Origin: Pirellulales bacterium | GTDB taxonomy: Bacteria > Planctomycetota > Planctomycetia > Pirellulales > Lacipirellulaceae | NCBI GenBank assembly: GCA_022448265.1 | Contig: JAKVCC010000015.1 | Coordinates: 57,375 to 121,374, forward strand | Direction: 5' to 3' | Length of the DNA: 64,000 nt | Shown here: in pieces, positions 5,576 through 27,468 of the stretch | How the letters are laid out: each line of letters opens with the position of its first letter | Numbering within the stretch: the first letter of the stretch is position 1 | Notes under the pieces: generated by a model | What the model saw: the letters and a program-made list of their open reading frames with translations, nothing else | Told to the model about the DNA's origin: nothing | Database searches by the model: none | Translations under genes and position numbers: made by a program

Positions 5576-6658
5576 TCACCCGGCGTTGCCGGCAGTGCGA
5601 ATGGTTACCTTGAGTTGATGGACATACGCCAAGACTTCGGCGACCGCAGTGTAGCTTTGGCCCGGAATGGGATCGCCCGGCTCGATTTCCTTGTAGAGCT
5701 GTTGGGCCAGCGGTTTGCGCTCGACCACCGTGATGTTGTGTTCCAATCCCAGACGGCGGATGCGTTGGGCCAGTACTCCCGCCCCTTTGGCGATGACGAT
5801 CGGGGCAATCATTTTGTTGGGATCGTACCGGATCGCCACAGCCAACTCAGTGGGGTTGGTGACGATGACATCGGCCTGAGGCACCTTGTCGCTCATTCGA
5901 TGTAGTGCCATTTGCCGCTGCACCGCTCGCCGGCGGGCAAGAATCTGGGGATCGCCCTGCATATTTTTCAATTCGTCGCGCACCTCCTGGTTGGTCATCC
6001 GCAAGTCTTGTTCGTGCTTCCATTTTTGGTAGGCAAAGTCGAGCAGTGCCAGCGTGAAGAGCGCGAGGCCTACCCACAGGGCCGTTGAGAGTGCAATGTC
6101 AACAAGAAACGGTGCCAGCTCTCGCGTAGAAATCGTACTTGCCAGGAGTACTTCTTCGCGACGCAAATAGAGTACGGTGGCTGCCACCGCCGCGACAATG
6201 CCGACTTTGAATATGCCAAGGCTCAGTTTTACGGCACCCGTCAAGGAAACGATCCGTTTGAATCCGGCCATTGGGCTCAAGCGTTTGAAATCAGGCTTTA
6301 GTTTTTCGGGAACAAACAAGATGCCGACCTGGAAAATGCTGCTGGCGATGCCCGCAATCGCCAGTAAGCCGACGATCGGCAACAAGGCGCGCCCCAGCGT
6401 TGAGATCAACTGTTGGGACTGCGCGACGATGGCCCCATTATCGACTGAGAGAGGCCCTGGGGTGCTGAGCTGGTATCGCATGAAGCTGCCCGAGGCATTG
6501 ATGATTTTTCCGCCCCAGACTTGCAGCAAAAGTACGCCCGTCACGAGCAAGGCGGCGGAGCTGAGGTCCTGGCTATAGGCAACCTGCCCTTGTTCGCGCG
6601 CCTGCTCGCGCCGATGTTGGGTGGCCTTTTGCGATTTTTCTGCCGACGAATCGGCCAT
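5576..6658 (-). CDS. flhB: Flagellar export gate protein FlhB
   Basis: A 360-residue membrane protein of the flagellar type III export gate, which switches substrate class after self-cleavage of its cytoplasmic tail. It has a basic N-terminus (MADSSAEKSQKATQHRREQ), four membrane segments in residues 30-210, and the cytoplasmic FlhB_C region. The cleavage loop reads VIVTNPTELAVAIRY, with Asn268-Pro269-Thr270-Glu271 where the family has NPTH. The Asn-Pro pair needed for cleavage is present but the His is Glu. It is the last gene of the minus-strand block, 4 bp after fliR. Identity is secure; substrate switching is uncertain. Confidence 0.95.
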   Translation of the reverse strand: MADSSAEKSQKATQHRREQAREQGQVAYSQDLSSAALLVTGVLLLQVWGGKIINASGSFMRYQLSTPGPLSVDNGAIVAQSQQLISTLGRALLPIVGLLAIAGIASSIFQVGILFVPEKLKPDFKRLSPMAGFKRIVSLTGAVKLSLGIFKVGIVAAVAATVLYLRREEVLLASTISTRELAPFLVDIALSTALWVGLALFTLALLDFAYQKWKHEQDLRMTNQEVRDELKNMQGDPQILARRRAVQRQMALHRMSDKVPQADVIVTNPTELAVAIRYDPNKMIAPIVIAKGAGVLAQRIRRLGLEHNITVVERKPLAQQLYKEIEPGDPIPGQSYTAVAEVLAYVHQLKVTIRTAGNAG

Positions 6659-6662
6659 GATA

Positions 6663-7448
6663 TCACTCTAGAGAGTTTCGGAGCGTGCCGCGAAGTAGCT
6701 CAATGGCGGCCGTCATTTGTTGGGGGAAGGCCCAGGCAACCGTACCCAGCGATACAAACAGGCAGCCCATTGTTAGCAGGGAGTTGATACCGAATCCAAC
6801 CGCCAGAATGTTGATTTGGGGCATGGTGCGCCCGATGAGCCCCAGTACCAGCGTGGCTAGCAAGAGCGCGGTCATTGTCGGCGCGGCGGCGCGAATCCCC
6901 AGCAGAAAGCTCTGCGAGAGCAATGTTGTGAGAGCTTCGACGTAGGTATCTCCTAGCGAGGCGCGCCCAGGCGGGATGGAGTGGTAGGTGTCCAGCAGAG
7001 CGTCCATAACCAGCCGATGGCCGTCCAGAAGGACAAACATGGCCAGTGCCAGGAAATAAAAAAGTTGGGAGTAAATCGAAACATTGGAATCCACGGTGGG
7101 ATCAAAGATTTCCGCCACGGCGGAACCCCCCAGTTGACTTATGATTTGTCCCGTCACTTGCACACCGGTCAGAAACAGGGTGATGCCGAAACCCAAAAGC
7201 AAACCTACCAGCGCCTCACTGGCGAGATATTTTCCGCAAATCAAGATGTTAGTCATATCGGCTGGTGGAGAGATCGCCACCAGCGGCGAGACGAGCAGCG
7301 AAATCGCTACGACCAAAAACGCGCGACCGTGCAGAGGTATGACTGACGCGCCAAATAAGGGTGCAGACATGACCAAGGCGCCGACTCGCGCGAGCACTAG
7401 CGTAAAGGTCGCGAACTGGTTGATCAGCAGAGTTTCCAGAAGCGACAT
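6663..7448 (-). CDS. fliR: Flagellar export gate protein FliR
   Basis: A 261-residue integral membrane protein of the FliPQR export gate. It has several hydrophobic helices and the typical FliR N-terminus (FTLVLARVGALVMSAPLFG). Length and spacing to fliQ and flhB are normal for the order fliP-fliQ-fliR-flhB. No disruption is seen. Confidence 0.95.
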   Translation of the reverse strand: MSLLETLLINQFATFTLVLARVGALVMSAPLFGASVIPLHGRAFLVVAISLLVSPLVAISPPADMTNILICGKYLASEALVGLLLGFGITLFLTGVQVTGQIISQLGGSAVAEIFDPTVDSNVSIYSQLFYFLALAMFVLLDGHRLVMDALLDTYHSIPPGRASLGDTYVEALTTLLSQSFLLGIRAAAPTMTALLLATLVLGLIGRTMPQINILAVGFGINSLLTMGCLFVSLGTVAWAFPQQMTAAIELLRGTLRNSLE

Positions 7449-7479
7449 TTCAACGCATTGGGGTGAAAGCGAGTCGTGA

Positions 7480-7746
7480 TCAAAGCGTGTTCGGGATGTT
7501 CGTTATCAGTCCATCTGCGTAGTCCACCAGACGTGACAGGATCCAGGGCATAGCAAAGGCCAGCGCTAAGGCCATCGCCACTAGCTTGGGCACGAACGCC
7601 ACGGTTTGCTCTTGTATTTGTGTGAGTGCCTGAATCAGACCAATAATCAGACCGACGGCCATTCCCGTAAGTAGCACCGGCGCAGCGACGAGCGTGGCGA
7701 TTAACAGTGCCTCACGACCGATGTCTACGGCGTCTTGCGGATCCAT
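7480..7746 (-). CDS. fliQ: Flagellar export gate protein FliQ
   Basis: An 88-residue protein with two membrane helices, the usual FliQ size and layout (LLTGMAVGLIIGLIQALTQI, then KLVAMALALAFAMPWIL). It forms the FliPQR export channel. The frame is intact, between fliP and fliR. Confidence 0.95.
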   Translation of the reverse strand: MDPQDAVDIGREALLIATLVAAPVLLTGMAVGLIIGLIQALTQIQEQTVAFVPKLVAMALALAFAMPWILSRLVDYADGLITNIPNTL

Positions 7747-7763: not shown

Positions 7764-8612
7764 CTAAGTCAGCACGGAAAAACTGTCGAGGAGCATACCG
7801 ACCACCAGCTTCCATCCGTCCACTAGAACAAATAACAATAATTTGAACGGCAGGGAGATAAGTACGGGGGGCAACATCAACATGCCCATCGAAATAGTCA
7901 CGCTGGCAACCACGATATCGAGAATTACAAAAGGCAAATAAATTTGAAATCCGATCAAGAAGGCCGTCTTCAACTCACTCAGCATGTAGGCGGGCAAGAG
8001 CGCCTGCAGGGGAACATTTTTTTCATGGTTCACGGCATCGTAGTAGACGTAGTCGGGGAATTCTCCTGTTACCGTATCAACTTCTCCCGGCATGTATTTG
8101 AGGAAGAGGTAGACATCTTCGTCGTTCTTGGTGCGGCTAATCTGGGTCCCCATGAATTTGCGTATCGGCAGGGTGCCGCGCTCCCATGCTTGTTCCAGAG
8201 TAATTTCCTTGTCGGTATAGGGCTTCACCCCTTGGTCGTAGACTGCCGTCCAGACCGGGGTCATCAAGAGGATCGTCATGAAAAGGGCAATCGAGGTGAT
8301 CACCTGGCTGGGCGGCAATTGCTGCGTGCCAAGGGCCTGCCGCAGCAATCCCAAGACAACCAGGATGCGAACGAAGCTGGTCGTCATCAACAGGATGGCC
8401 GGGGCTAGGCTGATTACCGTCAGCAGCAGCATCACCTGGAGTGCCGAGCTGAGACCTTCGGGACTTGTCCATTGCTCAGGCCCGCCCAGCGAGTGGGGCA
8501 GTACCGATGTGGGCGATATGGCCGTTTGAGAAAAGGCAATGGCCGGCGCCAGCACCAACAGCATCGCTGGCAAATAGATCAAAACACGGATTGTAGGGCG
8601 CTGGTTGATCAA
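7764..8612 (-). CDS. fliP: Flagellar export gate protein FliP
   Basis: A 282-residue core channel protein of the export gate. Family blocks include [19 protein letters not shown], a periplasmic loop (residues about 130-190) and the C-terminal hydrophobic pair ([20 protein letters not shown] and [15 protein letters not shown]). A cleavable signal sequence is likely at the N-terminus, as usual for FliP. The tracked start is TTG 8612, 4 bp after the fliO stop; an internal ATG ([13 protein letters not shown]) is an alternative. The frame is intact. Confidence 0.95.
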
Positions 8613-8616: not shown

Positions 8617-9396
8617 TTATCGTTGTTTTGCCTTGGGGTAGGTGGGGCCTGCTTCGCTGCCTAAGAACCCCTCGGCGGGCTCTTTGGAAAGTTGCTGGAG
8701 CACCTGCTGGAATTCGGCTGTGGTACTTTGTTTGTGCGTGCCGTGGCAAATACCAAGTAGCCGGTCGACTTCCTGGGGGTCGGCAACTTCTGTAAGTGGA
8801 GTTATTCCGTCAGGAGTAACCGCGACGAGTACCAGCTTGTTGCCGATGCGGATGAGCTGCGCGAAGTTTCGGTTGGCCAGTGGAAGCCGGCCGAGGACAG
8901 CGACTGCTTCCGCCGGCAGCAACGATGTTGGCTTGGGGCCGCTCCGCCGGACCATTGCCATGCAAACCAGAAATAGTCCTACAACGATTGCCAGCCCGGT
9001 GCCAGCAGTGGTTAAGGATTCGATTTGAGGCAATCCGAAAGAGGTCGTTTTTCTTGGGACCCGCGGCGGTTCGCGGGAGCTCACTACCCGTGGAGGGGCA
9101 GGCTTCGGCGTCAGAAGCCGCGGATTGGCAGGGAGAGGCAGCGACGGTGTTGCGGCCGACTCTTGGTCGAAGGTGGCGCGAACGACGGCACGCTCGGCAG
9201 CAAGCGGCTGGACCGCGGTCGGCTTAGCTTTCGGCGGATACTCGAGCAGCACTTCCGCCCGCGCTTCAACGATGACGCCCAGGCCACCTGCCAGTGCAAG
9301 GCCTCCCCAGACGCAATCGCGGAGAAACGTAGATTTGCAATCCGAAAAGAGCATGAGAGTGGCCAACCGGTGGAGCAGTGGGCGCAGACCCTTCAT
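8617..9396 (-). CDS. fliO: FliO-like flagellar biosynthesis protein
   Basis: About 259 residues. An N-terminal hydrophobic segment, a Pro/Arg-rich periplasmic linker, one membrane helix ([16 protein letters not shown]) and a FliO-type cytoplasmic domain ([23 protein letters not shown] ... DRLLGIC). FliO assists FliP assembly. ATG 9396 is preferred over the tracked TTG 9402. Its place directly before fliP supports the assignment more than the weak sequence signature does. Confidence 0.8.
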
Positions 9397-9501
9397 CGCC
9401 AAAGGGCCGTTAGACGCAGAGCGGCTTATAGAATTTCAGGCGTTTTCAAGCCATAGCAATCGATCGATTGGCCGACCGGACCACGATGCTAGCTTTCCAG
9501 G

Positions 9502-10116
9502 CTAGGCGGCAGCACCGTTGTCGACGATCAATTCGGCAACGCGCACGCAGAAGTTGTCGTTGAATACTAGCACTTCGCCTCTGGCCACTAGTTGACCGTT
9601 GACGTAGATGTCTGTCGGATCACTGGCCAGCTTATCGAGCGGCACGACGGCCCCTTGCTTGAGTTTAAGCACTTCTTCCAGTTCCATGTGCGTACGGCCT
9701 AACTCAATCGTCATGTCGAGCTGAACGTCGTGCATCGGTTCCAAAGTGGCCGTGCTGGTGTTGGCAGGAGTGTTGCCAAACTGCTCGAATTCGAATGTCC
9801 TGACCCCGGTCGGCAACGCCTGAAGAGCCAGATCGCTTGCCTCATTGATCGAAGTGAGGGCCTGTTCGGTCTTGTCCATCAGGAAGTCGATGTCGGATTG
9901 TGATGAAGGCGAATCAGCAGTCGGTTTGGGCGGGACTGTGGGTGTCGGAAGCATGCTGGCGTTTAGAAGGGCCTCCACTTTTGCCTGATCCATGGACGCA
10001 CTGCCCGCCGAGTTCGGGGGCGGCGGCGCTACTGGTGGAGTGCTATCACCGTCGGCCTCCTGCTGTATTGCTTGGTCTATTTCGTCTTGGCCAAGTGGGC
10101 CTTCGTTGTCTGTCAT
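9502..10116 (-). CDS. fliN: Flagellar switch protein FliN with FliM-like N-terminal peptides
   Basis: 204 residues from ATG 10116, which has a good AAAGGGA ribosome binding site; the tracked start at 10218 runs into fliL debris. The C-terminal 80 residues are a SpoA domain ([20 protein letters not shown] ... [18 protein letters not shown]), the C-ring unit that also docks FliH. The longer-than-usual N-terminal half is Pro-rich with three related short segments, [18 protein letters not shown] and SQSDIDFLM, which resemble the CheY-binding peptide of FliM. No fliM gene is present beside it. Confidence 0.9.
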
Positions 10117-10177
10117 AGGAATCCCTTTGCAGCGTGTCCTTCCCATCGCAACCTTCCACAAGTCATGAAAGACCAAT

Positions 10178-10690
10178 TCAGCATTCTTCGAACGAGAACT
10201 AGCTGAAGATGGTTTCACGCAACAGGGGCCGGCCCAATATGCGACTGGTTGTCTCCAATATCTTCTGTTTGATCAAGTCCAACCCGGCGTGGCTCATGTC
10301 GATGGTATTCGCGCTCCGCACGGCAGTCTGGATCCGTTTGAAGATGCGGTGTTTATTGACCTCGAAGAGCAAAAAACTTGGCTTCTTCGTCTGCTAGCAC
10401 GGTGCCAAACATCGCGAAATCGACATTCACGCGGCTACCCGCCTCTGCGTTGAAGTTGAGGACGTGGAAAGTTTCCTTGTTGCCTTTATTCGTGCCGCCC
10501 AATGCTAGAGATTTTGCCTCCTTGCCTGACGCATTGGATGCATCTCCGCTTTCTTTCAGTTATAGGTTTGCATTGTCGGCAGTGATTTTTTTCGCGATGG
10601 CCACCGTTTTCGACGCAGTCGGAATTATCATCGAATCTCTGGTCACTTTCAGAAATACAATGACGGAAACAAAGCCAAGGCTTTAACCAA
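10178..10690 (-). pseudogene. fliL: Broken fliL remnant
   Basis: No ORF covers this, but the minus strand reads as FliL across stops and frameshifts. It shows a membrane segment (GFVSVIVFL), SMIIPTASKTVAIAKK, then TAA at 10560-10562. The same frame continues (ETFHVLNFNAEAGSRVNVDF, FGTVLADEEAKF) to a hexa-A run at 10371-10376, where the frame shifts. It then reads NKHRIFKRIQTAVRSA and [12 protein letters not shown], meets TAG at 10199-10201, and ends FSFEEC-stop. Order and content match FliL, the stator-associated protein. With at least two stops and one frameshift it cannot yield full-length protein. Confidence 0.75.
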
Positions 10691-10699
10691 AGTCATGGT

Positions 10700-10983
10700 G
10701 CTGGGAGCTCTGTTGGGCGCGCTTTCGCCTGATGGTGTAGGGTAGAGGCTTGCATTCCCTCTTGCTGCTGCTTGTAAGAGGGTTCTTCGGACAACACATC
10801 GTGCTTGCCGGTATGCTACTGTTTTGCAATTGCGTGCATGTTGATGTCGTGCAGTAGCGAGACAATTTGAAACATGCAGTCGTCGCCTAGGTTGCCAGAT
10901 CGAGGAAGGCAGCTGTGAACTGCAGATGTCGTGATGACCGTGGCAACTGACAAGTAGCCAACGAGCAGAAACAGTATACGGAT
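10700..10983 (-). pseudogene. Broken motE-like gene downstream of fliJ
   Basis: Directly after the fliJ stop the minus strand reads RILFLLVGYLSVATVITTSA, then FQIVSLLHDINMHAIAKQ and TAG. A shifted frame follows with SEEPSYKQQQEGMQAS. This resembles the membrane-anchored MotE/MgtE-like protein that follows fliJ in planctomycete flagellar operons, as I recall it. There is no usable start codon (ATA ATA ATC where a start is expected) and at least one frameshift. The coiled-coil C-terminal part is missing; the text runs straight into fliL debris near 10690. Confidence 0.6.
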
Positions 10984-10985
10984 TA

Positions 10986-11441
10986 TTATGCCCTTGGCTG
11001 GCCGCCATTTCGCTCACGCGATGCAGTCTCGTCGAGCTGCTTGTTTTCGACTTGCTGTATCTTTTGGCGATGGACGGTTCGTTGACGTTGTTCCAGGTTG
11101 TCTAGGACCTGCACATGGCGATTGGCATCAACTAGCAGTTGGCGTTGCTGGAGGACCTCGGATTCGAGTAGTTTTGCTCGTGCTTCCATGGTCGATTTCT
11201 GAGCGCGGAGTACCGAGTGATATCGCTCAGTTTCCAAGAGCTGATCGACATTGGTGGTGGGCCCACCCAAGGCGTCGCGCCGCTGGTTTTGTAAGTCGCC
11301 GATCTCGTCTCTTAAGCTGACTAATTGATGTCGTAGCGTTGTTTCCGCCTGGGAGGCTTCGCTGAGTTTCATCTGCATCTCGTCACGATGAATCTCGCGG
11401 ATTCGGCGGAGGGTCGTTAAGCGAAAACGAAACGTGGTCAA
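10986..11441 (-). CDS. fliJ: FliJ-like flagellar export coiled-coil protein
   Basis: About 151 residues from TTG 11441 (TTFRFRLTTLRRIRE), which fits the family N-terminus; the tracked GTG 11504 adds a basic leader with no family look. The protein is almost entirely coiled coil (KLSEASQAETTLRHQLVSL and onward). FliJ is the stalk that couples the FliI ATPase to FlhA and carries chaperones. It follows fliI in the expected order and the frame is intact. Confidence 0.8.
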   Translation of the reverse strand: MTTFRFRLTTLRRIREIHRDEMQMKLSEASQAETTLRHQLVSLRDEIGDLQNQRRDALGGPTTNVDQLLETERYHSVLRAQKSTMEARAKLLESEVLQQRQLLVDANRHVQVLDNLEQRQRTVHRQKIQQVENKQLDETASRERNGGQPRA

Positions 11442-11613
11442 TGCTGTCTCTGGGCCTCTGTGTGGGACTGCGTTTTTGACGACCGGTTGACGCCTGAAAT
11501 GCACCCAGGTTCATTGCGGGGCAAATCGGTCCGCACCATTGCGGGCCCGAACATTGTATCCGGAACGAAATCTATTGCGGCGGCCCATTGGCCGCGCAAA
11601 GATCAATCGCTTA

Positions 11614-12975
11614 TTAGCTGTTCTCCTGGGGCAGTGCCGCTGTTGCTGCGGTTGAGCCTTCAAGTTGTCCAGCGCGCTGCTGGGCAAGTTGGGTCATTGC
11701 TGTGTGGACCGTTTCTAGTGGTGCCCGCTGACTGACTCCTTGTTGCAAGAATGCATGGATTTGGCTGCGCATCGCCACAGCAACGTCCAACTCGCGATTG
11801 ATGCCGGGGCGGTAGGCGCCAATCGATAGCAAGTCTTCGTTTTCTTCGAGGGCAGAGATCATCCGACGTACGTCCTGGGCGGCCTGCTGCTGAGAAGGCG
11901 ACGCCACGTCGTTCATCAGTCGGCTGATACTTCGCGGGATGTCGATAGCCGGGTAGTGGCCCTGCTGAGCCAGGCGGCGCGCCAGCCAAATATGACCGTC
12001 AAGCAAGCCTCGCATGGTGTCGGCAATGGGCTCGTTCTCGTCGTCTCCTTCCACCAGTACGGAGTAGAAGGCGGTAATGCTTCCAGCAGCCGTGCGTCCG
12101 GTGCGTTCGACCAATTTGGGGAGCTCCGCGAATGCTGAGGGCGGGAAGCCGCGCGTCGTCGGCGGTTCTCCCGCCGACAAACCAATTTCGCGCTGAGCTA
12201 AGGCGAATCGTGTTACCGAGTCCATTATCATCAAGACATCGTTGCCTGCACTTCGAAAATATTCCGCGATGCTCGTCGCGGCGTGGGCAGCTTGCACGCG
12301 CAGCAGGGCTGGTTCATTACTTGTGGCAACCACCACAACTGTGCGTTCCAGACCTGCGGGGCCCAACTCGCGCTGAATAAACTCGTTGACTTCACGGCCG
12401 CGCTCGCCGATCAGCGCAATGACTGCCACATCGGCGCTCGTGTAACGGCTCATCATTCCCAACAGCACACTCTTGCCGACGCCTGAGCCGGAAAAAATGC
12501 CCAGCCGCTGCCCTTTGCCACAGGTGAGCATTCCGTCGATCGCACGTACACCTGTGGCCAGGGGGGTGTCGATACGCGGTCTCTGCGTGGGTGGCATGGG
12601 CTCGCTTTGAAACGGGACCCGATGGTTGAGCATGGGTTGCGGACGGCCGTCGATGCAACGCCCACGGGCGTCGATCACACGTCCGAGTAAACCTTTGCCG
12701 ACCCGCAAGCTGCGGGAACTGCTCACCAGCTTGACAGGGCAACCGCAGTGGATGCCATCGAGGCGCCCCAGCGGCATGACCAGCGTTTGTTTGTCCCGAA
12801 ATCCGACGACCTCCGCTTCGATACCGGGACCAGACTGGCGCTCAATCGAAACTAGGGCTCCCACGGGCGCGGGAAAATCAGCTACTGCAGCAGTGAGTCC
12901 GACTGTTTGCACGACGCTGCCGGTTAAGCCGGCTAGAATAGCCCCGTCCAGGTGCGGTGGTATTTGCGTATTCAT
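11614..12975 (-). CDS. fliI: Flagellum-specific ATPase FliI
   Basis: A 453-residue hexameric ATPase of the type III export apparatus. It has an N-terminal barrel, Walker A (GIFSGSGVGKSVLLGMM), the GERGREVNEFI block, Walker B region (DVLMIMDSVTRFALAQREIG), GEPPTTRGFPPS, and a C-terminal domain. All catalytic blocks seem intact and the length is normal. It lies between fliH and fliJ. Confidence 0.97.
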   Translation of the reverse strand: MNTQIPPHLDGAILAGLTGSVVQTVGLTAAVADFPAPVGALVSIERQSGPGIEAEVVGFRDKQTLVMPLGRLDGIHCGCPVKLVSSSRSLRVGKGLLGRVIDARGRCIDGRPQPMLNHRVPFQSEPMPPTQRPRIDTPLATGVRAIDGMLTCGKGQRLGIFSGSGVGKSVLLGMMSRYTSADVAVIALIGERGREVNEFIQRELGPAGLERTVVVVATSNEPALLRVQAAHAATSIAEYFRSAGNDVLMIMDSVTRFALAQREIGLSAGEPPTTRGFPPSAFAELPKLVERTGRTAAGSITAFYSVLVEGDDENEPIADTMRGLLDGHIWLARRLAQQGHYPAIDIPRSISRLMNDVASPSQQQAAQDVRRMISALEENEDLLSIGAYRPGINRELDVAVAMRSQIHAFLQQGVSQRAPLETVHTAMTQLAQQRAGQLEGSTAATAALPQENS

Positions 12976-13030: not shown

Positions 13031-13696
13031 TCAGTTCATTTCTTCGGCCAGACGTGCCAATTGCGTTTCCAGTTGCATGTCTATGGAGCCGAATTCTGTC
13101 GTCACAACACAACCTCCCAAAGAGATTGTTTCGTCAGCGATAATTTTTCCGGGAGCGGCCTGGCCCATGACGGTTGCCAGCTGCTCAACCTGACTGCCAA
13201 GGGTTTGGTAGTCTGTGGGATGCAGCCGCACGGTTACTTCCGCTGCGCCGCCAGCAAGCTGTAGCGATTCGGTAATCCATGTAAGGGTAATATCGGGTTG
13301 CTGCTTGAGTTCCCGCCGGACGATGCGCAATGCGATGGCACTCGCTAGCTGGATAATAGAGGCTTCCCAATGGTGCAGCCACTCTTGGCGTGAGTCTTCG
13401 ATGAGTTGTACGGCGCTTGCTAGCGCGGGAGTGAGTGTTTGCACCTGCCTAGCAACCTTTTCGTCCAGTAGCGACTCGGCAGCGGACTTGGCCGCTTGGT
13501 GGCCCATCCGTTCAGCTTGTTCCCGGATTCGCGCTGACTCCTGTTTCGCTTCTTGGATGATCTTTGCAGCTTCACCGCGCACACCGTCTAAATAGGCTTC
13601 TGCCTGACTGGCCATGTCTGACGGACCATAAGCCACTCCGCGCAGCGCAGTACCCGAGCTAGATATTTGGGATTCGCGTTTGATGATCGTGGCCAT
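13031..13696 (-). CDS. fliH: FliH-like regulator of the flagellar ATPase
   Basis: 221 residues starting at ATG 13696 (MATIIKRESQISS), 20 bp after the fliG stop; the tracked start overlaps fliG. A long Ala/Glu-rich helix near residues 45-100 is followed by the FliH/V-ATPase-E-like C-terminal domain (ITLTWITESLQLAGGAAEVTVRLHP). FliH holds FliI inactive and links it to FliN. Intact and in the normal position. Confidence 0.88.
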   Translation of the reverse strand: MATIIKRESQISSSGTALRGVAYGPSDMASQAEAYLDGVRGEAAKIIQEAKQESARIREQAERMGHQAAKSAAESLLDEKVARQVQTLTPALASAVQLIEDSRQEWLHHWEASIIQLASAIALRIVRRELKQQPDITLTWITESLQLAGGAAEVTVRLHPTDYQTLGSQVEQLATVMGQAAPGKIIADETISLGGCVVTTEFGSIDMQLETQLARLAEEMN

Positions 13697-13716
13697 GGGT
13701 GGGGTGAGGTCCGCTG

Positions 13717-14916
13717 CTACACCTCTCGTACCAGTTGGGCTAAGTGTTGTTGGGCGGCCAGTATCTCGCTGAGGCGCGTCGGTGGAATTGTGCATAGCTG
13801 TTTGCGAAACTGCTTGGCTTGGCGACGGGGCATGCCTTGCAGGATTCGTTTGAGTAGCGATTCGCTTGCGCCAGCCAAGGCGAGCATACTAACGCGTCGG
13901 TCTGCCTGGCTGAGAGCGGCCAGCAGGGTTGCATCGTCGGCGCGCTCCAGTTCGGTCATAACGCTGGCCGACGTCATTTTCGGGTCATAGTCTGCCGAGA
14001 AGTCGCTCCGCGGATTTTCGCTTGGGGCAGGCGATTTCGTGTGCGAGCAGGTTGCCACGGCCGTGATGGTTGGATTGTCTACCTTGGGAGCGGCTACCGG
14101 GCGCAAGTTTTCCTGCAAATTCAGCGGCTGAGCCGACGGGCTGCTGGAGGGTTGGGCCGCGCCTTGGAGACGCCGGGATAACTCGGGTTTGAGATGGGAG
14201 ATTGTTGTGAGGATGCTGTCGCGGTGTGCTTGCGGTGCACTGCTCAAGATACGTTGCACCAGATCTGCACCCACCGCTATTCTTCGTTTTTGTTGCTGCT
14301 GCTGATCGATCCATTGGGCCAGTTGCGATTCGACGACGTGCAGTGTTTGAGGGTCTGCCATGTCGAGATCGGCCATGCGGCTCAGGACCTCGGCCTGTAA
14401 TCGATTGGAGAGTCGTACAAGAATGGCACCTGCACGGTCCTCTGAAAACCGCGAGAGAACTACGGCAATTGTTTGAGGATGTTCTTCCGCCAGCAAGTCG
14501 GCAAGCATGTTTGGGTCGGCTTGGCCGATAGCGTTTGGCAGACGGCAGGCGGTTTGGGGGAGGGATTCAGTGTGTGAATCGGTACTGCCGGATGTGTCGG
14601 CATCAAATTCTTGCGAATCCAGTCGGGCCAAAAGGGATGCGTCGAGTTCAACCCCATGGGTCGTCGCGGTAGGGGCGCTAGGTTGGGCCGTTGGCGCGTT
14701 GCGGGGAAGCAGCTCGTGGGCCATGCTGCGCCGAAATTCCTTGACAACGTTGCGTTGCTCGTCAGGATCCAGGGGCCCCAAATCGAGGGCCGCCTCGGCC
14801 ACAGCTTGGGCGGTACTTGCCGGCAATTCGTCAAGCACGCGGGATGCCCACGGATCGTCGAGGCTGGCGACGAGTACTGCGACTTTGCGTAAAGGGTGTT
14901 GCTCGGGCAAGGCCAT
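13717..14916 (-). CDS. fliG: Flagellar switch protein FliG
   Basis: About 399 residues. The middle domain carries EEHPQTIAVVLSRFS (the conserved EHPQ motif) and the C-terminal domain ends in TRLSEILAAQQHLAQL. In motile flagella FliG joins the MS ring to the C-ring and its C-terminal charges engage the stator. Aligned without gaps to the E. coli C-domain (from memory), K264 is Ala (LALAGA), D288-D289 are Lys-Gln (FRKQL), and R281 and R297 are kept. A Pro/Ala-rich insert separates the N and middle domains. ATG 14916 is preferred to TTG 14919. Confidence 0.92.
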   Translation of the reverse strand: MALPEQHPLRKVAVLVASLDDPWASRVLDELPASTAQAVAEAALDLGPLDPDEQRNVVKEFRRSMAHELLPRNAPTAQPSAPTATTHGVELDASLLARLDSQEFDADTSGSTDSHTESLPQTACRLPNAIGQADPNMLADLLAEEHPQTIAVVLSRFSEDRAGAILVRLSNRLQAEVLSRMADLDMADPQTLHVVESQLAQWIDQQQQQKRRIAVGADLVQRILSSAPQAHRDSILTTISHLKPELSRRLQGAAQPSSSPSAQPLNLQENLRPVAAPKVDNPTITAVATCSHTKSPAPSENPRSDFSADYDPKMTSASVMTELERADDATLLAALSQADRRVSMLALAGASESLLKRILQGMPRRQAKQFRKQLCTIPPTRLSEILAAQQHLAQLVREV

Positions 14917-14936
14917 CAAGGGCTTCCAGGTGGGGG

Positions 14937-17010: not shown

Positions 17011-17045
17011 CAAATTGTCCTGGGGCAACCGAATTAGGCTAGGGT

Positions 17046-17216
17046 TTACAGCGTTCTTTGACCAAGGTCTTTGGTGATTTTGATGACGCCAATATTGGCT
17101 GTGTAGTCGACGGTGGCTGCCAAGTCATCGACGACCTCGCTGATCATATTGATATTGGGATAAGTCACGTAGCATTGGTCATGGCGTGGATGGTAAGGGT
17201 CACTAGTTTCTTTCCC
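17046..17216 (-). pseudogene. flgC: 3' scrap of flgC (proximal rod protein)
   Basis: On the minus strand just before fliE, a frame with no ORF-track entry reads DPYHPRHDQCYVTYPNIN, then ISEVVDDLAATVDYTANIG and ends KITKDLGQRTL-stop. This is the C-terminal rod signature of FlgC in its usual place before fliE. Upstream the frame closes (TGA within about 30 bp of the Asp), and the N-terminal three quarters of the gene, plus flgB, are absent. Confidence 0.75.
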
Positions 17217-18218: not shown

Positions 18219-18704
18219 TTAGGACGTGATGACGCCGTTGTTAGATCGAAGCTCCGCCGCGGCGCGAGAACTGCTTTCGCTCCATGGCTGCTGTTGTGTC
18301 CGGTATGCGGTATGGGCAGCGCTCGTAGCATGGGCTGCTTGGAACTGGCCGGCCAGTGCGTCGCGACGACGGACCATTTTTTTTTCGTTGTCGCGTTCCA
18401 GTTGCATGACTTCTTCAAGGAGCTGGGTAGAAGCCGATACCTGTGTGGCGCAATGGGTCCGCTGCTCAGACGATTCCCACTGCCGGTTTTCCGGTTCGTC
18501 GGCATGGTACGGTGTCAGTTGTTGTTCGACCGCCTGTAGCATCACAAACAATTGATTCTTGGCAGCGATCAGGCGTAGCAAATCACTTATTGCGCCTGCG
18601 GTCACCAGATCGGACTGCTTGCAACCCAAATCGCGCAATTTCGTCAGGCACGAGAGTCGTTTGGCGATTAATGCAGTCAAATTTTCGGTCGTTAGGGCCG
18701 TCAC
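18219..18704 (-). CDS. FlgN/FliT-like helical protein
   Basis: 161 residues, first gene of the minus-strand flagellar block, 20 bp before the kinase. Almost all helix (LRDLGCKQSDLVTAG, QLFVMLQAVEQQL, QLLEEVMQLERDNEKKMVRR). Size, heptad pattern and place fit the FlgN-type export chaperone of hook-filament junction proteins, but similarity is low. The tracked start is GTG. If it is FlgN, its clients are not encoded in this window. Confidence 0.5.
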   Translation of the reverse strand: MTALTTENLTALIAKRLSCLTKLRDLGCKQSDLVTAGAISDLLRLIAAKNQLFVMLQAVEQQLTPYHADEPENRQWESSEQRTHCATQVSASTQLLEEVMQLERDNEKKMVRRRDALAGQFQAAHATSAAHTAYRTQQQPWSESSSRAAAELRSNNGVITS

Positions 18705-19099: not shown

Positions 19100-19864
19100 C
19101 TAGTCGGAAGCTGTCGTAGTTGTAGGCGACAAGCTCTCCATGACCCAATCGTTGACATCCGAGAGCATGGTGGTTGTTAAGCCGTCGCCCTCGGGATACA
19201 GCCGCAATGAGAGTGAAAATCCGGCATAGTGAAGGAGTTTCAGGTCGTCCAGTACTTCTTCACTAGAATAGTTGTTCGCGTTGGGCGAAACCGCCAGCAG
19301 CAACGGCAGATGGCGAGCTTGGTTGATATTCCGTAAGGGGCAACCACCGCGCGGGACGGGCCCTCCGAGAGAAATAGCACCGGCGAACAAATCGGGATTC
19401 TCCATTCCGATCCGCTGCGCCATCGTTCCCCCTTCGGCGTACCCAGCGATGAAAGTGCGATTCGGGTGTATGGTGTAACGCTGCCGCGCTAATTCGATGC
19501 ATTGCCGAGTTCGCTCGCTAGCTTCTGCCAGTTCATCGGCAGAATCGCCCCAACCGAATCCGCCGCCCAGCCCAGTGCGGTCTTGCGTGCCACGCGGCGC
19601 AACGGCAACGTAATTGCGGACACTTAACTGGGGCATAAGCTGCCAAAGTTCTTCTTCGTGGCTGCCGTCTCCGTGCATCCAGACGATGAGCGGATACTCA
19701 TAGCCGCTTTCGTAGTGGATGGGAGCGAAAAAACAGTGCGCCACACCCGACATGTCGGGTGCGCCTATTGTGGATAGTTCGCGCCGGCCGAGCCAGTCAT
19801 GCTGATCATTTGGACAGAGTAAATCAGACTGGGAGGCGTCTGTTACGGGCAGAGTACGATTCAT
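19100..19864 (-). CDS. Alpha/beta-hydrolase (phospholipase/carboxylesterase-like), nucleophile replaced
   Basis: 254 residues. Fold motifs of the PF02230 esterase group are visible: PLIVWMHGDGSHEEELW (oxyanion region), NYVAVAPRGT, and the nucleophile elbow. The elbow reads FIAGYAEGGTMAQ, so the G-x-S-x-G serine is Ala. The C-terminal end, where the catalytic His is expected, reads YPEGDGLTTTMLSDVNDW with no His. It may be inactive or use other residues. It lies downstream of malate dehydrogenase on the same strand with about 570 bp between. Confidence 0.75.
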   Translation of the reverse strand: MNRTLPVTDASQSDLLCPNDQHDWLGRRELSTIGAPDMSGVAHCFFAPIHYESGYEYPLIVWMHGDGSHEEELWQLMPQLSVRNYVAVAPRGTQDRTGLGGGFGWGDSADELAEASERTRQCIELARQRYTIHPNRTFIAGYAEGGTMAQRIGMENPDLFAGAISLGGPVPRGGCPLRNINQARHLPLLLAVSPNANNYSSEEVLDDLKLLHYAGFSLSLRLYPEGDGLTTTMLSDVNDWVMESLSPTTTTASD

Positions 19865-20431: not shown

Positions 20432-21409
<978 letters not shown>

Positions 21410-21595: not shown

Positions 21596-23677
21596 ATGGC
21601 TTCAGAGGACTCGGGTGCGCTGGGCATTGTCCACCGTGCTCAAGATCTCATATTGCCAGTAGCGATTATTGCCAGCGTGCTGGTGATCTTGGTGCCTCTG
21701 CCGCCCGCGTTCATGGACGTGTTGCTGGCGGGAAACATCACGATTGCCGTGATTGTACTGCTGACCACGATATATGTGCGCTCTCCCCTAGAATTCAGCA
21801 TCTTCCCCTCGCTCCTGCTGGCAACGACGCTGGCTCGTCTCGTTCTGAATGTGGCGACAACCCGACTGATTCTCACGCGGGCTGCGACCGACGGCCATCG
21901 CGCGGCAGGTGGCGTGATCACGGCGTTTTCCGACTTCGTCGCTGGTGACGGGAAAATCGTCGTCGGGCTGATTATCTTTATCATCATTGTTGTGATTCAG
22001 TTTGTTGTCATCACCAAGGGTGCCACGCGGATTAGCGAAGTCGCCGCCCGTTTTGCCTTGGATGGTATGCCAGGTAAGCAAATGGCGATCGACGCGGATT
22101 TGAACGCTGGAATTATCGACGAGCACGAAGCCCAGAAGCGTCGCAATGAGATAACTCAGCAAGCCGATTTTTATGGGGCTATGGACGGTGCGAGCAAATT
22201 CGTTCGTGGTGACGCGATTGCCGGAATCGTGATCACGGTGATCAATATTGTTGGCGGCCTGATTATCGGTATGGCGGAATACGGTATGCCGCTCAGCGAG
22301 GCCAGTGCGTTGTTCACTCAGCTCACAATTGGCGACGGTTTGGTCAGCCAAGTACCCGCCTTCTTGATTTCTCTGGCTGCAGGTTTGTTGGTTACGCGAA
22401 GCACCCAAAAAACCAATCTTCCGCAGCAGTTCGTCACACAGCTTTTTTCTCGGCCACAGGCAATGGCTGTGGCGGGAGCCTTCTTGGGGATTTTGGTAGC
22501 TACCGATTTGCCTCGCATGCCTTTGATGATCTTGTGCGCTGCTTGCCTGGGTATGGCCCGCACACTTTCAAATAAGGAATCTGCAAAGTTGGCCGCCGAG
22601 GAGGCCGCCGCTGCGCAGCCGCCACCCGCCGAGGAAGAGTGCATTGAGGACTACCTCACCGTCGATCCAATGGAACTCGAAGTCGGTGTAGGCTTGATCC
22701 GTCTAGCCGATCCCAAGCGGGGTGGCGATTTGCTCGAACGCGTGCAGCATGTGCGGCAAAGCGTTGCTAGTGAAATTGGCATCATCATGCCCAAGGTCCG
22801 TATTCGCGACAATATGCGGCTGGAGCCAAACGAATATCGCATCAAGCTGGCTGACATGCCCATTGCCCAAGACTGCCTAGAACCGGCCCAACTATTGGCA
22901 ATCGATTCGGGTATGACCACCGGATATGTGGACGGCATCGCGACGAAGGATCCGGCCTTTGGTACGGAGGCACGCTGGATTGTGCCCGCCCTGAAGGAGC
23001 AGGCAGAGATTTTCGGATACACTGTGGTAGAGCCCGGCGCTGTGCTAGCCACGCACTTGACCGAGATCTGCCGGCGCCACGCTGATGAGGTGCTCACGCG
23101 GGATGCCACCAAGCATCTGGTCGACCAGTTGAAGACCACTCAGCCTGCAGTCGTTGATGAACTGGTTCCCGACATGATGTCGTTAGCCGAAGTTCAGGCA
23201 GTGCTGCAGTTACTGCTGCGTGAACAGGTGTCGGTCAAACAGTTAGCGCTGGTGTTGGAAACGCTCGGCGACTACGCCGGTCGTACGAAGGATCCAATTT
23301 TGCTCACTGAGCATGTGCGCCATCGCCTGGCCCGACAGATTTGCACGCGGTACCGCGACGACCAGGGCAGGCTCTATGTCTTGGCAATCGATCCGGCCAT
23401 GGAGGACCGCATTGGGGCAGGGTTCGAACACTCCGACCGCGGACTCCTTATCCGCATGTCGCCCCAGGCAGTCGAAGCAACCTGCAACGCCATCGCCGCG
23501 CAGCTGCCCGCACTGGTGAGCGCGCAGCACACTCCCATTCTCTTGGTAAGCCCACAAATTCGAGCTGCCCTGAAACAAATCACCGAAAACCATTTGCCCC
23601 AATTGATCGTTCTGAGTTTTAACGAAGTGACACGCGACACGCAGATTATAACGGCGGGACTAGTAGCCGATGGGTAG
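21596..23677 (+). CDS. flhA: Flagellar export gate protein FlhA
   Basis: 693 residues, full length. Eight hydrophobic segments in the first 320 residues are followed by the cytoplasmic domain, with the family block LEPNEYRIKLADMPIA and the C-terminal SLAEVQAVLQLLLREQV. FHIPEP-type loop blocks (ATTRLILTRA; KGATRISEVAARFALDGMPG) are present. FlhA forms the ring that receives export substrates. It starts the plus-strand flagellar operon and shows no disruption. Confidence 0.97.
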   Translation: MASEDSGALGIVHRAQDLILPVAIIASVLVILVPLPPAFMDVLLAGNITIAVIVLLTTIYVRSPLEFSIFPSLLLATTLARLVLNVATTRLILTRAATDGHRAAGGVITAFSDFVAGDGKIVVGLIIFIIIVVIQFVVITKGATRISEVAARFALDGMPGKQMAIDADLNAGIIDEHEAQKRRNEITQQADFYGAMDGASKFVRGDAIAGIVITVINIVGGLIIGMAEYGMPLSEASALFTQLTIGDGLVSQVPAFLISLAAGLLVTRSTQKTNLPQQFVTQLFSRPQAMAVAGAFLGILVATDLPRMPLMILCAACLGMARTLSNKESAKLAAEEAAAAQPPPAEEECIEDYLTVDPMELEVGVGLIRLADPKRGGDLLERVQHVRQSVASEIGIIMPKVRIRDNMRLEPNEYRIKLADMPIAQDCLEPAQLLAIDSGMTTGYVDGIATKDPAFGTEARWIVPALKEQAEIFGYTVVEPGAVLATHLTEICRRHADEVLTRDATKHLVDQLKTTQPAVVDELVPDMMSLAEVQAVLQLLLREQVSVKQLALVLETLGDYAGRTKDPILLTEHVRHRLARQICTRYRDDQGRLYVLAIDPAMEDRIGAGFEHSDRGLLIRMSPQAVEATCNAIAAQLPALVSAQHTPILLVSPQIRAALKQITENHLPQLIVLSFNEVTRDTQIITAGLVADG

Positions 23678-23958
23678 GGAGGCGCGAGTTGGTTGGCTGT
23701 CGACCATATCGCACGCCTCATAGGCTGATTCCAGTAACACGAACTTTTGACACGGAAAGGCGCGAGTTTCGAGTTTCGAGACGCGAGATACTATTTTTAT
23801 TGGTCATAGCGCCGCTAATGGGCCCACCGCCGCAATCTGTATTTGGCGGGAAGCAGTCTGGTTCCGGCGAAGGCACGGGTTTATTTTCCGCGCAATGATC
23901 AGTCGAAGCGAGGACAATGGGCGACTCGCGCCTCCTAACTGGAAGCTTGAAAACAATC

Positions 23959-25104
23959 ATGCAAATCAAGACGTTTCGTGCGAATTCGTTGCAGCAAGCG
24001 CTCGATATGGTGCGCCGCGATATGGGTATGGAGGCTACCATCTTGCATACGCGTGAACTCCGGCGGGGACTTGTGAGTTGCCTGTGGCGTAGCAAACAGT
24101 ATGAGATAGCTGCCTGTGGCGGAGGGCTAGCTTCGCAGAACGCGTCGCGAGAGGAATCTCGCAGATCTATTATTGAGCCCGTTGCGCCAGCAATTACGGG
24201 CTTTGACTACCGGAATAAATATCGGCAGGATTTTGGCAATCAAGTGGAAGGTCAGGAAGGACTCAATGCATTAGCGGAGCAGCTCCAGCAGGGATCCATG
24301 CAGTTGCCGCAACGGCAAGTGCCGGAAGGGGTGTTTCAGGTCTACACCGACATGATTGAATCAGATATCGACGAAATGATTGCCCAAGAGCTGTTGCAAC
24401 GATTGCAGACGGGCATCGGCCGTGATTCGAACGACCCCACGGAGTTGCAGGCCGAAGTCGCACGCATGCTGGAGGAAGAGATTCGGGTATCAGGTCCAAT
24501 TCAACCGCTGGCGGAGCAGGGCAGGGTGGTTGCCCTCGTTGGGCCGACTGGTGTAGGCAAGACCACGACGATCGCCAAGCTGGCTGCCAATTTTCGTCTG
24601 CGTGAGAACAGACGGGTCGGGTTGATCACGGTCGATACGTACCGAATCGCCGCGGTAGAGCAATTACGCACCTATGCAGACATTATCGACTTGCCGATGG
24701 AAGTGGTGAGTACGCCTCGAGAAATGCGCGAGGCGGTGGCCCGGATGCGCAACTTCGACTTGGTGCTGATGGACACGGCCGGACGGAGCCCGCGTGACGA
24801 GGTTAAGATTCAGGAACTCAAATCCATATTGGCCGAGGCCGATCCCGACGAAGTGCACCTAGTACTGAGTGCAACTGCGGGGATCCGCCCGTTAGTATCC
24901 GCGGCCAAAGAGTTTTCCAGCGTAGGTACCACGGCGATATTGATTACCAAGCTCGACGAGTCGACCTGCCTGGGAAATCTTCTGGGCCTGACCCGTGCTT
25001 GTGGTTTGCCAATCAGTTATCTGACCGACGGCCAGAATGTGCCCGACGACATCCAAGTGGCCGAATCGAGTCAGTTGGCCAAGATGATATTAGGAGTGTG
25101 TTAG
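23959..25104 (+). CDS. flhF: SRP-type GTPase FlhF
   Basis: 381 residues from ATG 23959 (MQIKTFRANSLQQALDMVRR); the tracked start is 14 codons upstream. The B/N region is followed by the G domain: GPTGVGKTTTIAKLA, ITVDTYRIAAVEQL, MDTAGRSPRD and TKLDES. FlhF sets the site and number of flagella and recruits FliF. The GTPase motifs are intact. It lies between flhA and the flhG-like gene. Confidence 0.93.
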   Translation: MQIKTFRANSLQQALDMVRRDMGMEATILHTRELRRGLVSCLWRSKQYEIAACGGGLASQNASREESRRSIIEPVAPAITGFDYRNKYRQDFGNQVEGQEGLNALAEQLQQGSMQLPQRQVPEGVFQVYTDMIESDIDEMIAQELLQRLQTGIGRDSNDPTELQAEVARMLEEEIRVSGPIQPLAEQGRVVALVGPTGVGKTTTIAKLAANFRLRENRRVGLITVDTYRIAAVEQLRTYADIIDLPMEVVSTPREMREAVARMRNFDLVLMDTAGRSPRDEVKIQELKSILAEADPDEVHLVLSATAGIRPLVSAAKEFSSVGTTAILITKLDESTCLGNLLGLTRACGLPISYLTDGQNVPDDIQVAESSQLAKMILGVC

Positions 25105-25190
25105 TGGCGAGTTGGTAGGCTCGCGTCTTGAGGACGTTGCCAACGAGTGCAATTCGTCAAAACATCAAACGTTTAACCGCGCCCCCGACC

Positions 25191-26069
25191 ATGTTTGACC
25201 AAGCCGATCCCTTGCGAAATCTAGTACGCACCACGGTTCAAGCGCATCCGGCGCTGCGGCCGGGTGTGCCGCTGGTGGTGCTGACCGGAGGCCCATCTGT
25301 GGTGGGGACTTCTACGGTTGCCCTTCAACTAACGCGAGAGCTGGCTCAATTAGGAAAACGGGCGGTACTGGTGGACGCGGATCTAGTCCAGACTAAGCTG
25401 ACCCGGCAACTTGGCGTGGCGCGTAGCGGCTGTCTGGCCGATGTACTTGCCGGCAATCGATCTGCTGTTGAAGTACTGGCGCCCGTGTGCGATCAAGTTT
25501 GCTTGTTGCCGGGGCGTTGGGACCCGAGTGCTCCACCTGAGTTGCACCGTTTGGCACTGCAGCGGTTTTTTTCCGAAGTACGCAATTTGCATTCCCGCGC
25601 CGACGTGGTCGTCCTGGACGCCGGCGAGGGGATGAGTCCTTGGGTACAGCAGATGTGGCAGGCCGCGCAGCAGATCCTCATGATCACATCGACCGACTCG
25701 AAAGAGGTAACCGAAACTTATGCCATGATCAAGTTGGCGCCCCGGGACGACGTAGATGGAAAACTACGACTTGTGGTTACCGGTGCGGAAGATCGTGCCG
25801 GAGCAGAACGGGTCGGAGTCAACTTCGCAGCTACCTGCCGCCAGTTTCTTGGTGTTAAGATCGGGCCGCATGTCACGCTGGCCAGGAGCACGGCGCCTGA
25901 TTCTGCCAACGCCTCTACCCGCAGAGTCAGCGACGACCGAGCCTTTACGCAGTCAGTACGCTCATTGGCTGCCGACCTAATGAGTCACTGTCTGGTGCTG
26001 GCAGACTCCGCTTCGCAGCGTGCTGATATAAGGGGCGCTGCTAACCTGGGCGGATTCGTGGAAAAATAA
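25191..26069 (+). CDS. flhG: FlhG/FleN-like MinD-family protein without P-loop lysines
   Basis: 292 residues from ATG 25191 (MFDQADPLRNLV), the natural family N-terminus; the tracked start is 63 bp upstream. The MinD fold is clear: VLTGGPSVVGTSTVALQL, KRAVLVDADL, and DVVVLDAGEG. FlhG normally binds ATP through KGGVGKT and limits flagellar number with FlhF. Here both the signature Lys and the P-loop Lys are replaced (GGPSVVGTST), so ATP hydrolysis is doubtful. Position after flhF supports the identity. Confidence 0.8.
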   Translation: MFDQADPLRNLVRTTVQAHPALRPGVPLVVLTGGPSVVGTSTVALQLTRELAQLGKRAVLVDADLVQTKLTRQLGVARSGCLADVLAGNRSAVEVLAPVCDQVCLLPGRWDPSAPPELHRLALQRFFSEVRNLHSRADVVVLDAGEGMSPWVQQMWQAAQQILMITSTDSKEVTETYAMIKLAPRDDVDGKLRLVVTGAEDRAGAERVGVNFAATCRQFLGVKIGPHVTLARSTAPDSANASTRRVSDDRAFTQSVRSLAADLMSHCLVLADSASQRADIRGAANLGGFVEK

Positions 26070-26200
26070 CTTGCTAACAGCAAAAACAATTCACGCTTGG
26101 ATGACGAATATGCCGATCAGGATTGATAGTCGAGTGGCGTGTCGCCACCTGTTAAAATGGCAGGTTTGCATAAATTTTAAGGCCCATGGGAGTGGGATCG

Positions 26201-26453
26201 ATGGCTCGCATGTACACGGCGGTCATGGCGCTACTAGCAACGGTAGTGGTACTCCTGCAGGGTGTGAAAAATGGCGCGGGCTTCGACGGGACGATGTCCT
26301 TCCGGTATGGCTTGGATGGCCTTGCTGGGTGACATCGGCTGAATTGTCGGGGCTCTGGCGGAGGCCACTGTTGTTGAGTCGGTGTGCACCCGGATGGAAG
26401 CGGAGTTGGCGGCGATCAGAGCGACCTCGTCCGATACGAAAATTAGCGGTTAG
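26201..26453 (+). pseudogene. Broken small membrane-protein gene between flhG and fliA
   Basis: ATG 26201 has a GAGTGGG site and reads MARMYTAVMALLATVVVLLQ, then runs to TGA. In a shifted frame the text continues ALLGDIG, TGA at 26340-26342, then IVGALAEATVVESV and RMEAELAAIRATSSD to TAG 26451-26453. This looks like one small protein (membrane helices and a short helical tail) broken by a frameshift and a stop, possibly TGG to TGA. I recall a conserved planctomycete protein here, function unknown. Confidence 0.55.
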
Positions 26454-26682
26454 TCCGCGTTTGACCAACTGCCTGAAGCGGCGTTGGAATGGGCACGGGA
26501 ACCGGTGGTTCGGAATCGGCAGGTTGGAATTGGTAGCCAAGTGAAAACCTTGGTTTGCTCGCCGACCGTGGGAGCGGACGGACTTGTCACAAACAAACAC
26601 GAGAATGGAATCTCGCTGACCATACTGCTTGCGTTGGGCGGCTATTCGCGCCGCGCAGGTAGAAGCATCATGGAGGAAGCGC

Positions 26683-27468
26683 ATGGCAACGACTGTAGCC
26701 GCACAAGACGAAATTACCGAAGTTTGGCAGCAGTTTAAGAAGGATCCAAGTCGTCGCGATCTGCGTAATAGGCTGGTCGAACGTTATCTTCCACTGGTCA
26801 AGTACAACGGCGAGCGGATCTGGTCGCGCTTGCCCGATGGAGTGGAACTCGACGACCTCATCTCTGCTGGAGTTTTTGGACTTATGGACGCCATCAAGGC
26901 GTTTGATATGTCGCGTGGCGTAAAGTTCGAAACCTATTGTGTGCCGCGTATCCGTGGTGCCATGCTCGATGAACTTCGGAGCATGGACTGGGTGCCGCGT
27001 CTGGTGCGATCTAAGGCGAGTAAGCTCAACGAGGCAGTCAAGCGGTTGGAAGCGAAGCTGGGCCGCGCTCCGTCTGTAGTCGAACTTGCCGAGCGCATGG
27101 AAATGTCGGTTCCTGTACTAGAGAAAATGATTCAGGACGCTAATGCCGTTGGTCTGATCAGCCTCAACAAAAAGTGGTACGAGACAGACAGCTACAAAGA
27201 TGTCCGGGAGATCGACATTCTTGAAGACAAGAAAGGCGAGGATCCGACGCGGCGAATTCAAAAGTCGGATCTCATGCGACTGGTCACCAAGGGCCTCAAC
27301 CGGAATGAGCGGCTCATCATCATTTTGTATTATTACGAAGAGATGACGATGAAAGAAATCGGCTCGACACTCGACCTGAGCGAGAGCCGCGTGAGCCAGA
27401 TGCACAGCGCAATTGTCTCCAGGCTACAGGGCCAATTGAGTCGCCGCCGTCCGGAGTTTGGTACGTAG
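26683..27468 (+). CDS. fliA: Flagellar sigma factor FliA (sigma-28)
   Basis: 261 residues from ATG 26683 with a strong GGAGG site; the tracked start is 18 codons upstream. Region 2 (LVKYNGERIWSRLPDGVELDDL, FDMSRGVKFETYCVPRIRGAML), region 3 (RAPSVVELAERMEM) and region 4 (EEMTMKEIGSTLDLSESRVSQMHS) are all present. It directs late flagellar promoters. Kept intact although no filament, hook or anti-sigma gene is in the window. A strong terminator follows. Confidence 0.95.
   Translation: MATTVAAQDEITEVWQQFKKDPSRRDLRNRLVERYLPLVKYNGERIWSRLPDGVELDDLISAGVFGLMDAIKAFDMSRGVKFETYCVPRIRGAMLDELRSMDWVPRLVRSKASKLNEAVKRLEAKLGRAPSVVELAERMEMSVPVLEKMIQDANAVGLISLNKKWYETDSYKDVREIDILEDKKGEDPTRRIQKSDLMRLVTKGLNRNERLIIILYYYEEMTMKEIGSTLDLSESRVSQMHSAIVSRLQGQLSRRRPEFGT

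Follow-up and report, generated by a model that had tools for sequence, protein, structure and literature searches.

The window analysed here, a stretch of 64,000 nucleotides (G000:C7:57375-121374), belongs to a metagenome-assembled genome (MAG) of Bythopirellula, family Lacipirellulaceae (3.64 Mb in 87 contigs, estimated to be 97.3% complete), a genus whose daughter cells have been described as motile (PMC7717034). It carries a flagellar locus of two operons which, with moderate confidence, we read as the export half of a recently reduced flagellum that has been maintained by selection, probably as an inner-membrane exporter into the periplasm.

The genome has no rod, hook, filament, P-ring or stator, so that by membership its system is not a flagellum, and it keeps the export apparatus, the MS ring and a complete C ring. 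As proxies we used PF00460, the rod/hook N-terminal family that covers rod, hook and FlgK, and Flagellin_N for the filament; neither gave a match anywhere in the genome, and both were positive in all 13 congeners searched. True P-ring FlgI was not found either, the sole match being a second FlgI-like protein of 569 amino acids that congeners carry in addition to true FlgI. This second protein (560-790 amino acids; G000:C56:183383-184069) is present in most of the searched Planctomycetia and f77 genomes, with or without rods. None of the genome's four MotA_ExbB matches occupies the site of motA, and the one on contig C26 has ExbD adjoining; a MotA elsewhere in the genome is ruled out by the ExbB/TolQ-type gene context of the leftover matches. 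One gene that the preliminary description of this DNA had listed as missing, fliM, is intact and encodes a protein of 363 amino acids on contig C14 (L152 3726-4817, minus strand) with 66-76% identity to congeners. Loss of FliM is thus ruled out by an unlinked copy on another contig, which adjoins proA as it does in G001; fliM was also not found in the congener operon, and there is therefore no fliM gap at the window locus.

Comparison with G001 indicates how the locus was reduced. There the first operon reads flhB-fliR-Q-P-O-fliN-fliL-motB-motA-flgE-flgD-fliK-motE-fliJ-I-H-G-F-E-flgC-flgB-flgR-kinase-flgN-TPR gene-esterase-mdh, and after mdh follow flhA-flhF-flhG-small gene-fliA, the small gene sitting between flhG and fliA. 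The window has this same order minus three large deletions. The first (~7.4 kb) fused codon 91 of motE to the front of fliL with the loss of fliK, flgD, flgE, motA and motB; the second (~2.3 kb) took the 5' part of flgC along with flgR and flgB; and the third (~2.4 kb), between flgN and est, took the TPR gene. Retained genes were identified by Pfam or by congener orthology, and stumps were mapped by tblastn with congener proteins such as FliL. The genes first described as intact were borne out by Pfam (flhA, flhB, fliO-R, fliE-J, fliN and flhF) or by congener orthology (flhG and fliA), as were the fossils of flgC, motE and fliL, which carry stops and frameshifts, and the absence of flgB, fliK, flgD, flgE, motA and motB from their congener positions. 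Overlooked at that stage were flgN, an FlgS-like kinase and a fourth stump, that of the small gene. Together the four stumps contain 7 stops and 3 frameshifts in ~431 codons. The mdh segment had been taken to be unrelated to the operons that it separates, an insertion that congener synteny rules out, since in congeners, too, the two operons are separated by mdh-est; the placement of the esterase-like gene and mdh beside the flagellar operon is syntenic even in G054 and G038. The losses had moreover been called non-random, with everything kept building or steering the pore and everything lost making or turning the external structure. This case is weaker than stated, as about three large deletions are involved and the rotor- or axial-side genes fliG, fliM, fliN, fliE and flgN are kept.

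The same stumps bear on whether the flagellum could in fact be complete, its missing genes lying in the 2.7% of the MAG that was not assembled. The fragmentation and incompleteness of the assembly speak for this, as does one surveyed genome, G332, in which rod genes were missed though flagellins were found. We nevertheless regard it as scarcely credible, given that motA, motB, fliK, flgD, flgE, flgB and flgC have been excised from syntenic sites on a single contig with decayed stumps left behind, and that the unlinked fliC, flgKL, flgFG and flgI are also missing.

The preliminary description had offered two possibilities, that decay has only begun or that the pore is under selection as a secretion device, and had proposed the ratio of nonsynonymous to synonymous substitution (dN/dS) as a measure. 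Between the window and its congeners this ratio is uninformative, synonymous differences being saturated (pS ~0.7-0.8), and it was replaced by a decay rate calibrated on the stumps and by dN/dS computed for pairs of rodless sister species, with mdh, a neighbouring housekeeping gene, as local control. At the stump rate the 5,929 retained codons are expected to hold ~96 stops and ~138 disabling changes, and none of either was observed; this intactness is significant singly for the large genes (FlhA, P ~1e-7; FliF, 3e-6; FliI, 3e-5) and not, or weakly so, for FliQ, FliE and FlgN. It follows that the retained genes have been under selection since the deletions. Nonsynonymous divergence from congeners relative to that between congeners (pN ratio) was 0.9-1.4 for retained genes and 1.44 for mdh, and reached 2.78, 1.32 and 1.12 in the flgC, fliL and motE stumps. 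In amino-acid branch length FliA, FliP, FliH, FliQ and FliG do not exceed the congener mean, the kinase, fliN, fliJ and fliE reach 1.8-2.2 times that of congeners, as against 1.9 times for mdh, and FlhA and FliI show less excess change than mdh. Purifying selection on the retained genes is accordingly supported by the sequences, with no excess of amino-acid change over mdh. Plain early decay, whereby the flagellum had become useless and the retained genes are merely not yet disabled, would suit the small number and large size of the deletions, the stumps that are still recognisable, the already altered phosphoacceptor box of the kinase and the raised rates of fliN, hk, fliJ and fliE. We consider it distinctly unlikely, however, because even one tenth of the stump rate predicts ~10-14 disabling changes, because FliP, FliH, FliQ and FliA are free of excess and FlhA and FliI lie below mdh, and because the systems that survive in other rodless lineages have dN/dS well under 1. 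Of the two possibilities first offered, retention under selection is thus upheld by the stop counts, the mdh control and recurrence, while the secretion device is what we infer.

That recurrence emerged from a survey of 394 Planctomycetota genomes, each at least 90% complete and mostly MAGs, in which the lists of FlhA and PF00460 matches were compared by eye. PF00460 was found in 267 genomes and FlhA in 301, and 41 had FlhA without PF00460, a number that falls to 39 once G172 (a marginal FlhA match) and G332 (four flagellins) are dropped. The rodless state, defined as FlhA with neither PF00460 nor flagellin, therefore occurs in 39 of 394 genomes and in 14 families, and the window genome fits it. 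Such a distribution points to a use of the machine other than swimming. Rodless genomes were read around FlhA or FliG only, and genes absent there may lie elsewhere. In G054, from a different family of the same order, the gene set nearly equals that of the window (mdh-esterase-kinase-fliF-G-H-I-J-N-O-P-Q-R-flhB and flhA-F-G), with no rod genes and a cluster lacking fliE and flgN. More reduced are G190 (fliF-H-I-J-O-P-Q-R-flhB-flhA-flhF-flhG-fliA) and G369/G433 (fliP-Q-R-flhB-flhA-flhF, then fliA). In the rodless sister pair G388-G428 dN/dS was 0.077 for FlhA, 0.047 for FliI, 0.090 for FliH, 0.138 for FliG and 0.169 for FliF, and FlhA gave 0.044 in G164-G145 and 0.20 in G134-G180; values within rodless sister pairs were mostly 0.04-0.25, G405-G286 being a looser exception at 0.30-0.71. 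Apart from flagellar genes, no conserved new gene that might encode a substrate recurred beside the rodless clusters in five or more genomes. For non-motile planctomycetes, small sets of flagellar genes have previously been noted only as being in keeping with the lack of motility (PMC5352709), whereas the present data indicate that the remnants are selected.

A phylogeny of FlhA places the window protein beside that of the rod-bearing G003 (support 100/98), inside its host genus, and well-supported branches of this tree force at least seven changes of state. A single ancient rodless lineage for all cases is not supported by such a tree. Some rodless Pirellulales form long branches outside the rod-bearing ones and may be misplaced, and the changes may be losses in part and transfers in part. 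The position of the window FlhA within a tree that took in no injectisome SctV suggests a flagellar protein. It is very improbable that the locus encodes a non-flagellar, injectisome-type type III secretion system (T3SS). The export core is common to both kinds of machine, and rod, hook and filament are absent, but the nesting of FlhA within the host genus and the retention of fliG/M/N, flhF/G and fliA tell against it; nor is a gene for a secretin, a needle or an SctD-type ring visible in the locus, although no genome-wide secretin search was made. Two further genomes, G411 (L233, L234) and G415 (L235, L236), each combine flagellin genes with a pair of full-length FlhA genes. In the tree one member of the pair falls among rodless systems, and its partner (beside motA/motB in G415) joins another flagellar lineage, as if, to judge from the sequences, a second flagellum had been gained beside an old export core.

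A second feature sets the rodless systems apart. Self-cleavage of FlhB at NPTH normally switches export from rod/hook to filament substrates, and this switching is governed by the FlhB cytoplasmic domain (PMC7911332). The NP(T/E)x site is kept in 20 of 20 rod-bearing or flagellar-type FlhB proteins (nine from Lacipirellulaceae and 11 from elsewhere) and is lost in all 17 rodless systems examined outside the window, in most of which the cytoplasmic domain, too, is missing in whole or in part. The FlhB of G048 (L180) is likewise truncated, with 286 amino acids and no autocleavage domain, and this genome is predicted to be rodless. Unlike those 17, the window FlhB retains NPTE; with the rod lost and the site still present, the window locus looks like an early, and the youngest, stage of a process in which older rodless lineages have lost the FlhB switch too. 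Loss of the switch would fit a machine with a single class of substrate, and would also leave room for a role other than export. FliF and FliG are moreover fused in one frame (Pfam YscJ_FliF plus FliG) in the rodless G056, G217, G038 and G330, an arrangement that was not seen in rod-bearing congeners.

The main rival to export, which we consider unlikely, is that the complex serves as a polar landmark, for instance in budding or division, or as the hub of a regulatory checkpoint, and exports no protein. FlhF and FlhG were found in 22 and 13, respectively, of the genome labels compared, and the Campylobacter kinase FlgS directly senses the core of MS ring, rotor and export apparatus (PMC7064773). 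The C-terminal part of the kinase still adjoins fliF in G054, G056, G217 and G038, a remnant that likewise favours the hub. However, a landmark or hub would not need conserved FliP, FliQ and FliR, or a FliI with its Walker A motif, and the known output of the checkpoint is gone: in the window the partner gene flgR has been deleted and the phosphoacceptor box has changed from HEVRN to HKVSP, the phosphoacceptor histidine is missing in G054 and the whole region is missing in G056, G217 and G038, so that it is altered or lost in five of the five rodless kinases examined.

According to the exporter model, the rod, hook, filament, P-ring and stator of a flagellum disappeared recently, and what remains is the FliPQR-FlhBA gate, the FliHIJ ATPase, FliO, the MS ring, the C ring with its unlinked FliM, FlhF/FlhG and sigma-28. 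Driven by protons, the machine would most likely release a single protein or a small number of them into the large periplasm of planctomycetes; FlhF/FlhG would position the complex, and the genes under FliA control might not be flagellar ones. The periplasm is the suggested destination because rod, P-ring and hook are absent and no outer-membrane route was found (secretins were not searched for). Conservation is far stronger in FliA than in the rest of the flagellar genes (dN of 0.003 over 265 codons between G388 and G415, at a dS of ~2.1), which suggests a regulon extending beyond flagella. Several points weigh against this model. No substrate is known for the exporter, and the genome is a MAG. 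Loss of the FlhB cytoplasmic domain, in whole or in part, in most older rodless lineages means that classical substrate handling has changed there or that export may not be the retained function; 24 of the 41 rodless or candidate genomes lack a FliG_M match, which makes one shared mechanism uncertain; and the rates of fliN, hk, flgN, fliM and fliJ are slightly raised in the window genome.

Taken across the phylum, Planctomycetota may repeatedly convert the flagellum to a third type III machine that is neither flagellum nor injectisome, a proposal on which we lean slightly to the side of doubt. It would be an exporter of the inner membrane that serves the periplasm and has no rod, P-ring or filament; in older lineages it would also lack the FlhB switch and carry a FliF-FliG fusion, and the window would capture it shortly after rod loss. 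Arguments on how a flagellum gives rise to other secretion machines have so far drawn on a single ancient case, the injectisome. In the present phylum the opening steps, in which rod, hook and stator go and the export core stays, recur many times and at different ages, and some rodless cases fall in genera with rod-bearing sisters, which makes the order of loss readable and open to testing. The correlation of rod loss with loss of the FlhB switch offers direct sequence evidence for the purpose of that switch. A search of the open literature returned nothing specific on planctomycetes that retain flagellar export genes. The features of the locus are listed in Table 1; downstream of fliA, at 27684-29450, lies a gene for a large protein whose translation shows an N-terminal segment resembling that of type IV pilins (LTLIEMLVGMAITLVMMAAVVTLF).

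Table 1. Features of the reduced flagellar locus (window positions), followed by the FliF::FliG fusions of other rodless genomes (positions in the named loci).
Feature	Position	Strand	Basis
flhB, export gate, full length, NPTE autocleavage site kept	5576..6658	-	Pfam PF01312 1.6e-113; motif alignment
fliR, export gate	6663..7448	-	Pfam PF01311
fliQ, export gate	7480..7746	-	Pfam PF01313
fliP, export gate	7764..8612	-	Pfam PF00813
fliO	8617..9402	-	Pfam PF04347
fliN, C ring; true start probably internal	9502..10218	-	Pfam PF01052
fliL stump, 2 stops and frameshifts	about 10184..10756	-	tblastn, congener FliL
motE-like stump, first 91 codons, 1 stop	10723..10992	-	tblastn; G001 gene coordinates and annotation
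fliJ; true start probably internal	10986..11504	-	Pfam PF02050
fliI, ATPase, Walker A intact	11614..12975	-	Pfam PF00006, PF18269; alignment
fliH	13031..13795	-	Pfam PF02108
fliG, rotor	13717..14919	-	Pfam FliG_N/M/C
fliF, MS ring	14937..16592	-	Pfam PF01514
fliE	16708..17028	-	Pfam PF02049
flgC stump, last 55 codons, 1 stop	17037..17201	-	tblastn
FlgS-like sensor kinase (hk), ATPase domain kept	17299..18198	-	Pfam HATPase_c; alignment
flgN-like chaperone	18219..18704	-	Pfam PF05130 below cut-off; congener orthologues
Esterase-like gene (est), non-flagellar, syntenic in congeners	19100..19864	-	orthology
mdh, syntenic in congeners	20432..21388	-	orthology
flhA, export gate	21596..23677	+	Pfam FHIPEP 1.2e-248
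flhF, polar GTPase	23917..25104	+	Pfam SRP54; orthologues
flhG, MinD-like	25128..26069	+	congener orthologues at 40-55%
Stump, small membrane protein gene (111 amino acids in G001), 3 stops, 1 frameshift	26150..26414	+	tblastn
fliA, sigma-28	26629..27468	+	congener orthologues 85-90% identical
FliF::FliG fusion, L186	7444-9900	+	
FliF::FliG fusion, L190	9131-11614	-	
FliF::FliG fusion, L191	8865-10763	+	
FliF::FliG fusion, L184	9477-11609	-	

The closest known system is the flagellar T3SS of motile Bythopirellula and other polar flagellates, with which the window shares its genes, their order and the mdh-est neighbourhood, its FlhA being sister to that of a rod-bearing genome; it differs in lacking the rod, hook, hook-associated, filament, P-ring and stator genes and in the deletion of the response regulator. 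Reduction of a flagellum to a partial structure, proposed to act as a secretion device, is familiar from the hook-basal bodies of Buchnera (cited in PMC13063649). There, however, rod and hook are kept and the filament is lost, whereas the window has neither rod nor hook. In the non-flagellated Lysobacter enzymogenes OH11, flagellar T3SS-like genes still export flagellin and several of them affect twitching motility (PMC7277350, PMC9927559). Flagellar export genes are thus kept without a flagellum in both cases, but the window case belongs to another phylum and represents a recurrent state rather than one organism. We know of no test of the FlhB switch in Lysobacter. Chlamydial FliI, FlhA and FliF are likewise flagellar orthologues kept without a flagellum (PMC2830194), so that export and MS-ring genes persist in this way in a phylum of the same superphylum; unlike the window, Chlamydia keeps few such genes, whose products interact with a genuine injectisome. 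A survey published in 2025 on the loss of flagellar genes places Chlamydiota among the partial sets, and planctomycetes go unmentioned in its text (PMC12199754). Finally, the 'Myxo' T3SS of Myxococcales is a vertically kept export core without FlgBCDEK, MotAB, FlgH, secretin or needle (PMC3459982), and resembles the window system as a conserved export core devoid of rod, hook and stator. It lacks FliE and FliG, though, and is basal to injectisomes, while the window system retains fliE together with an entire C ring and its FlhA lies inside its own genus.

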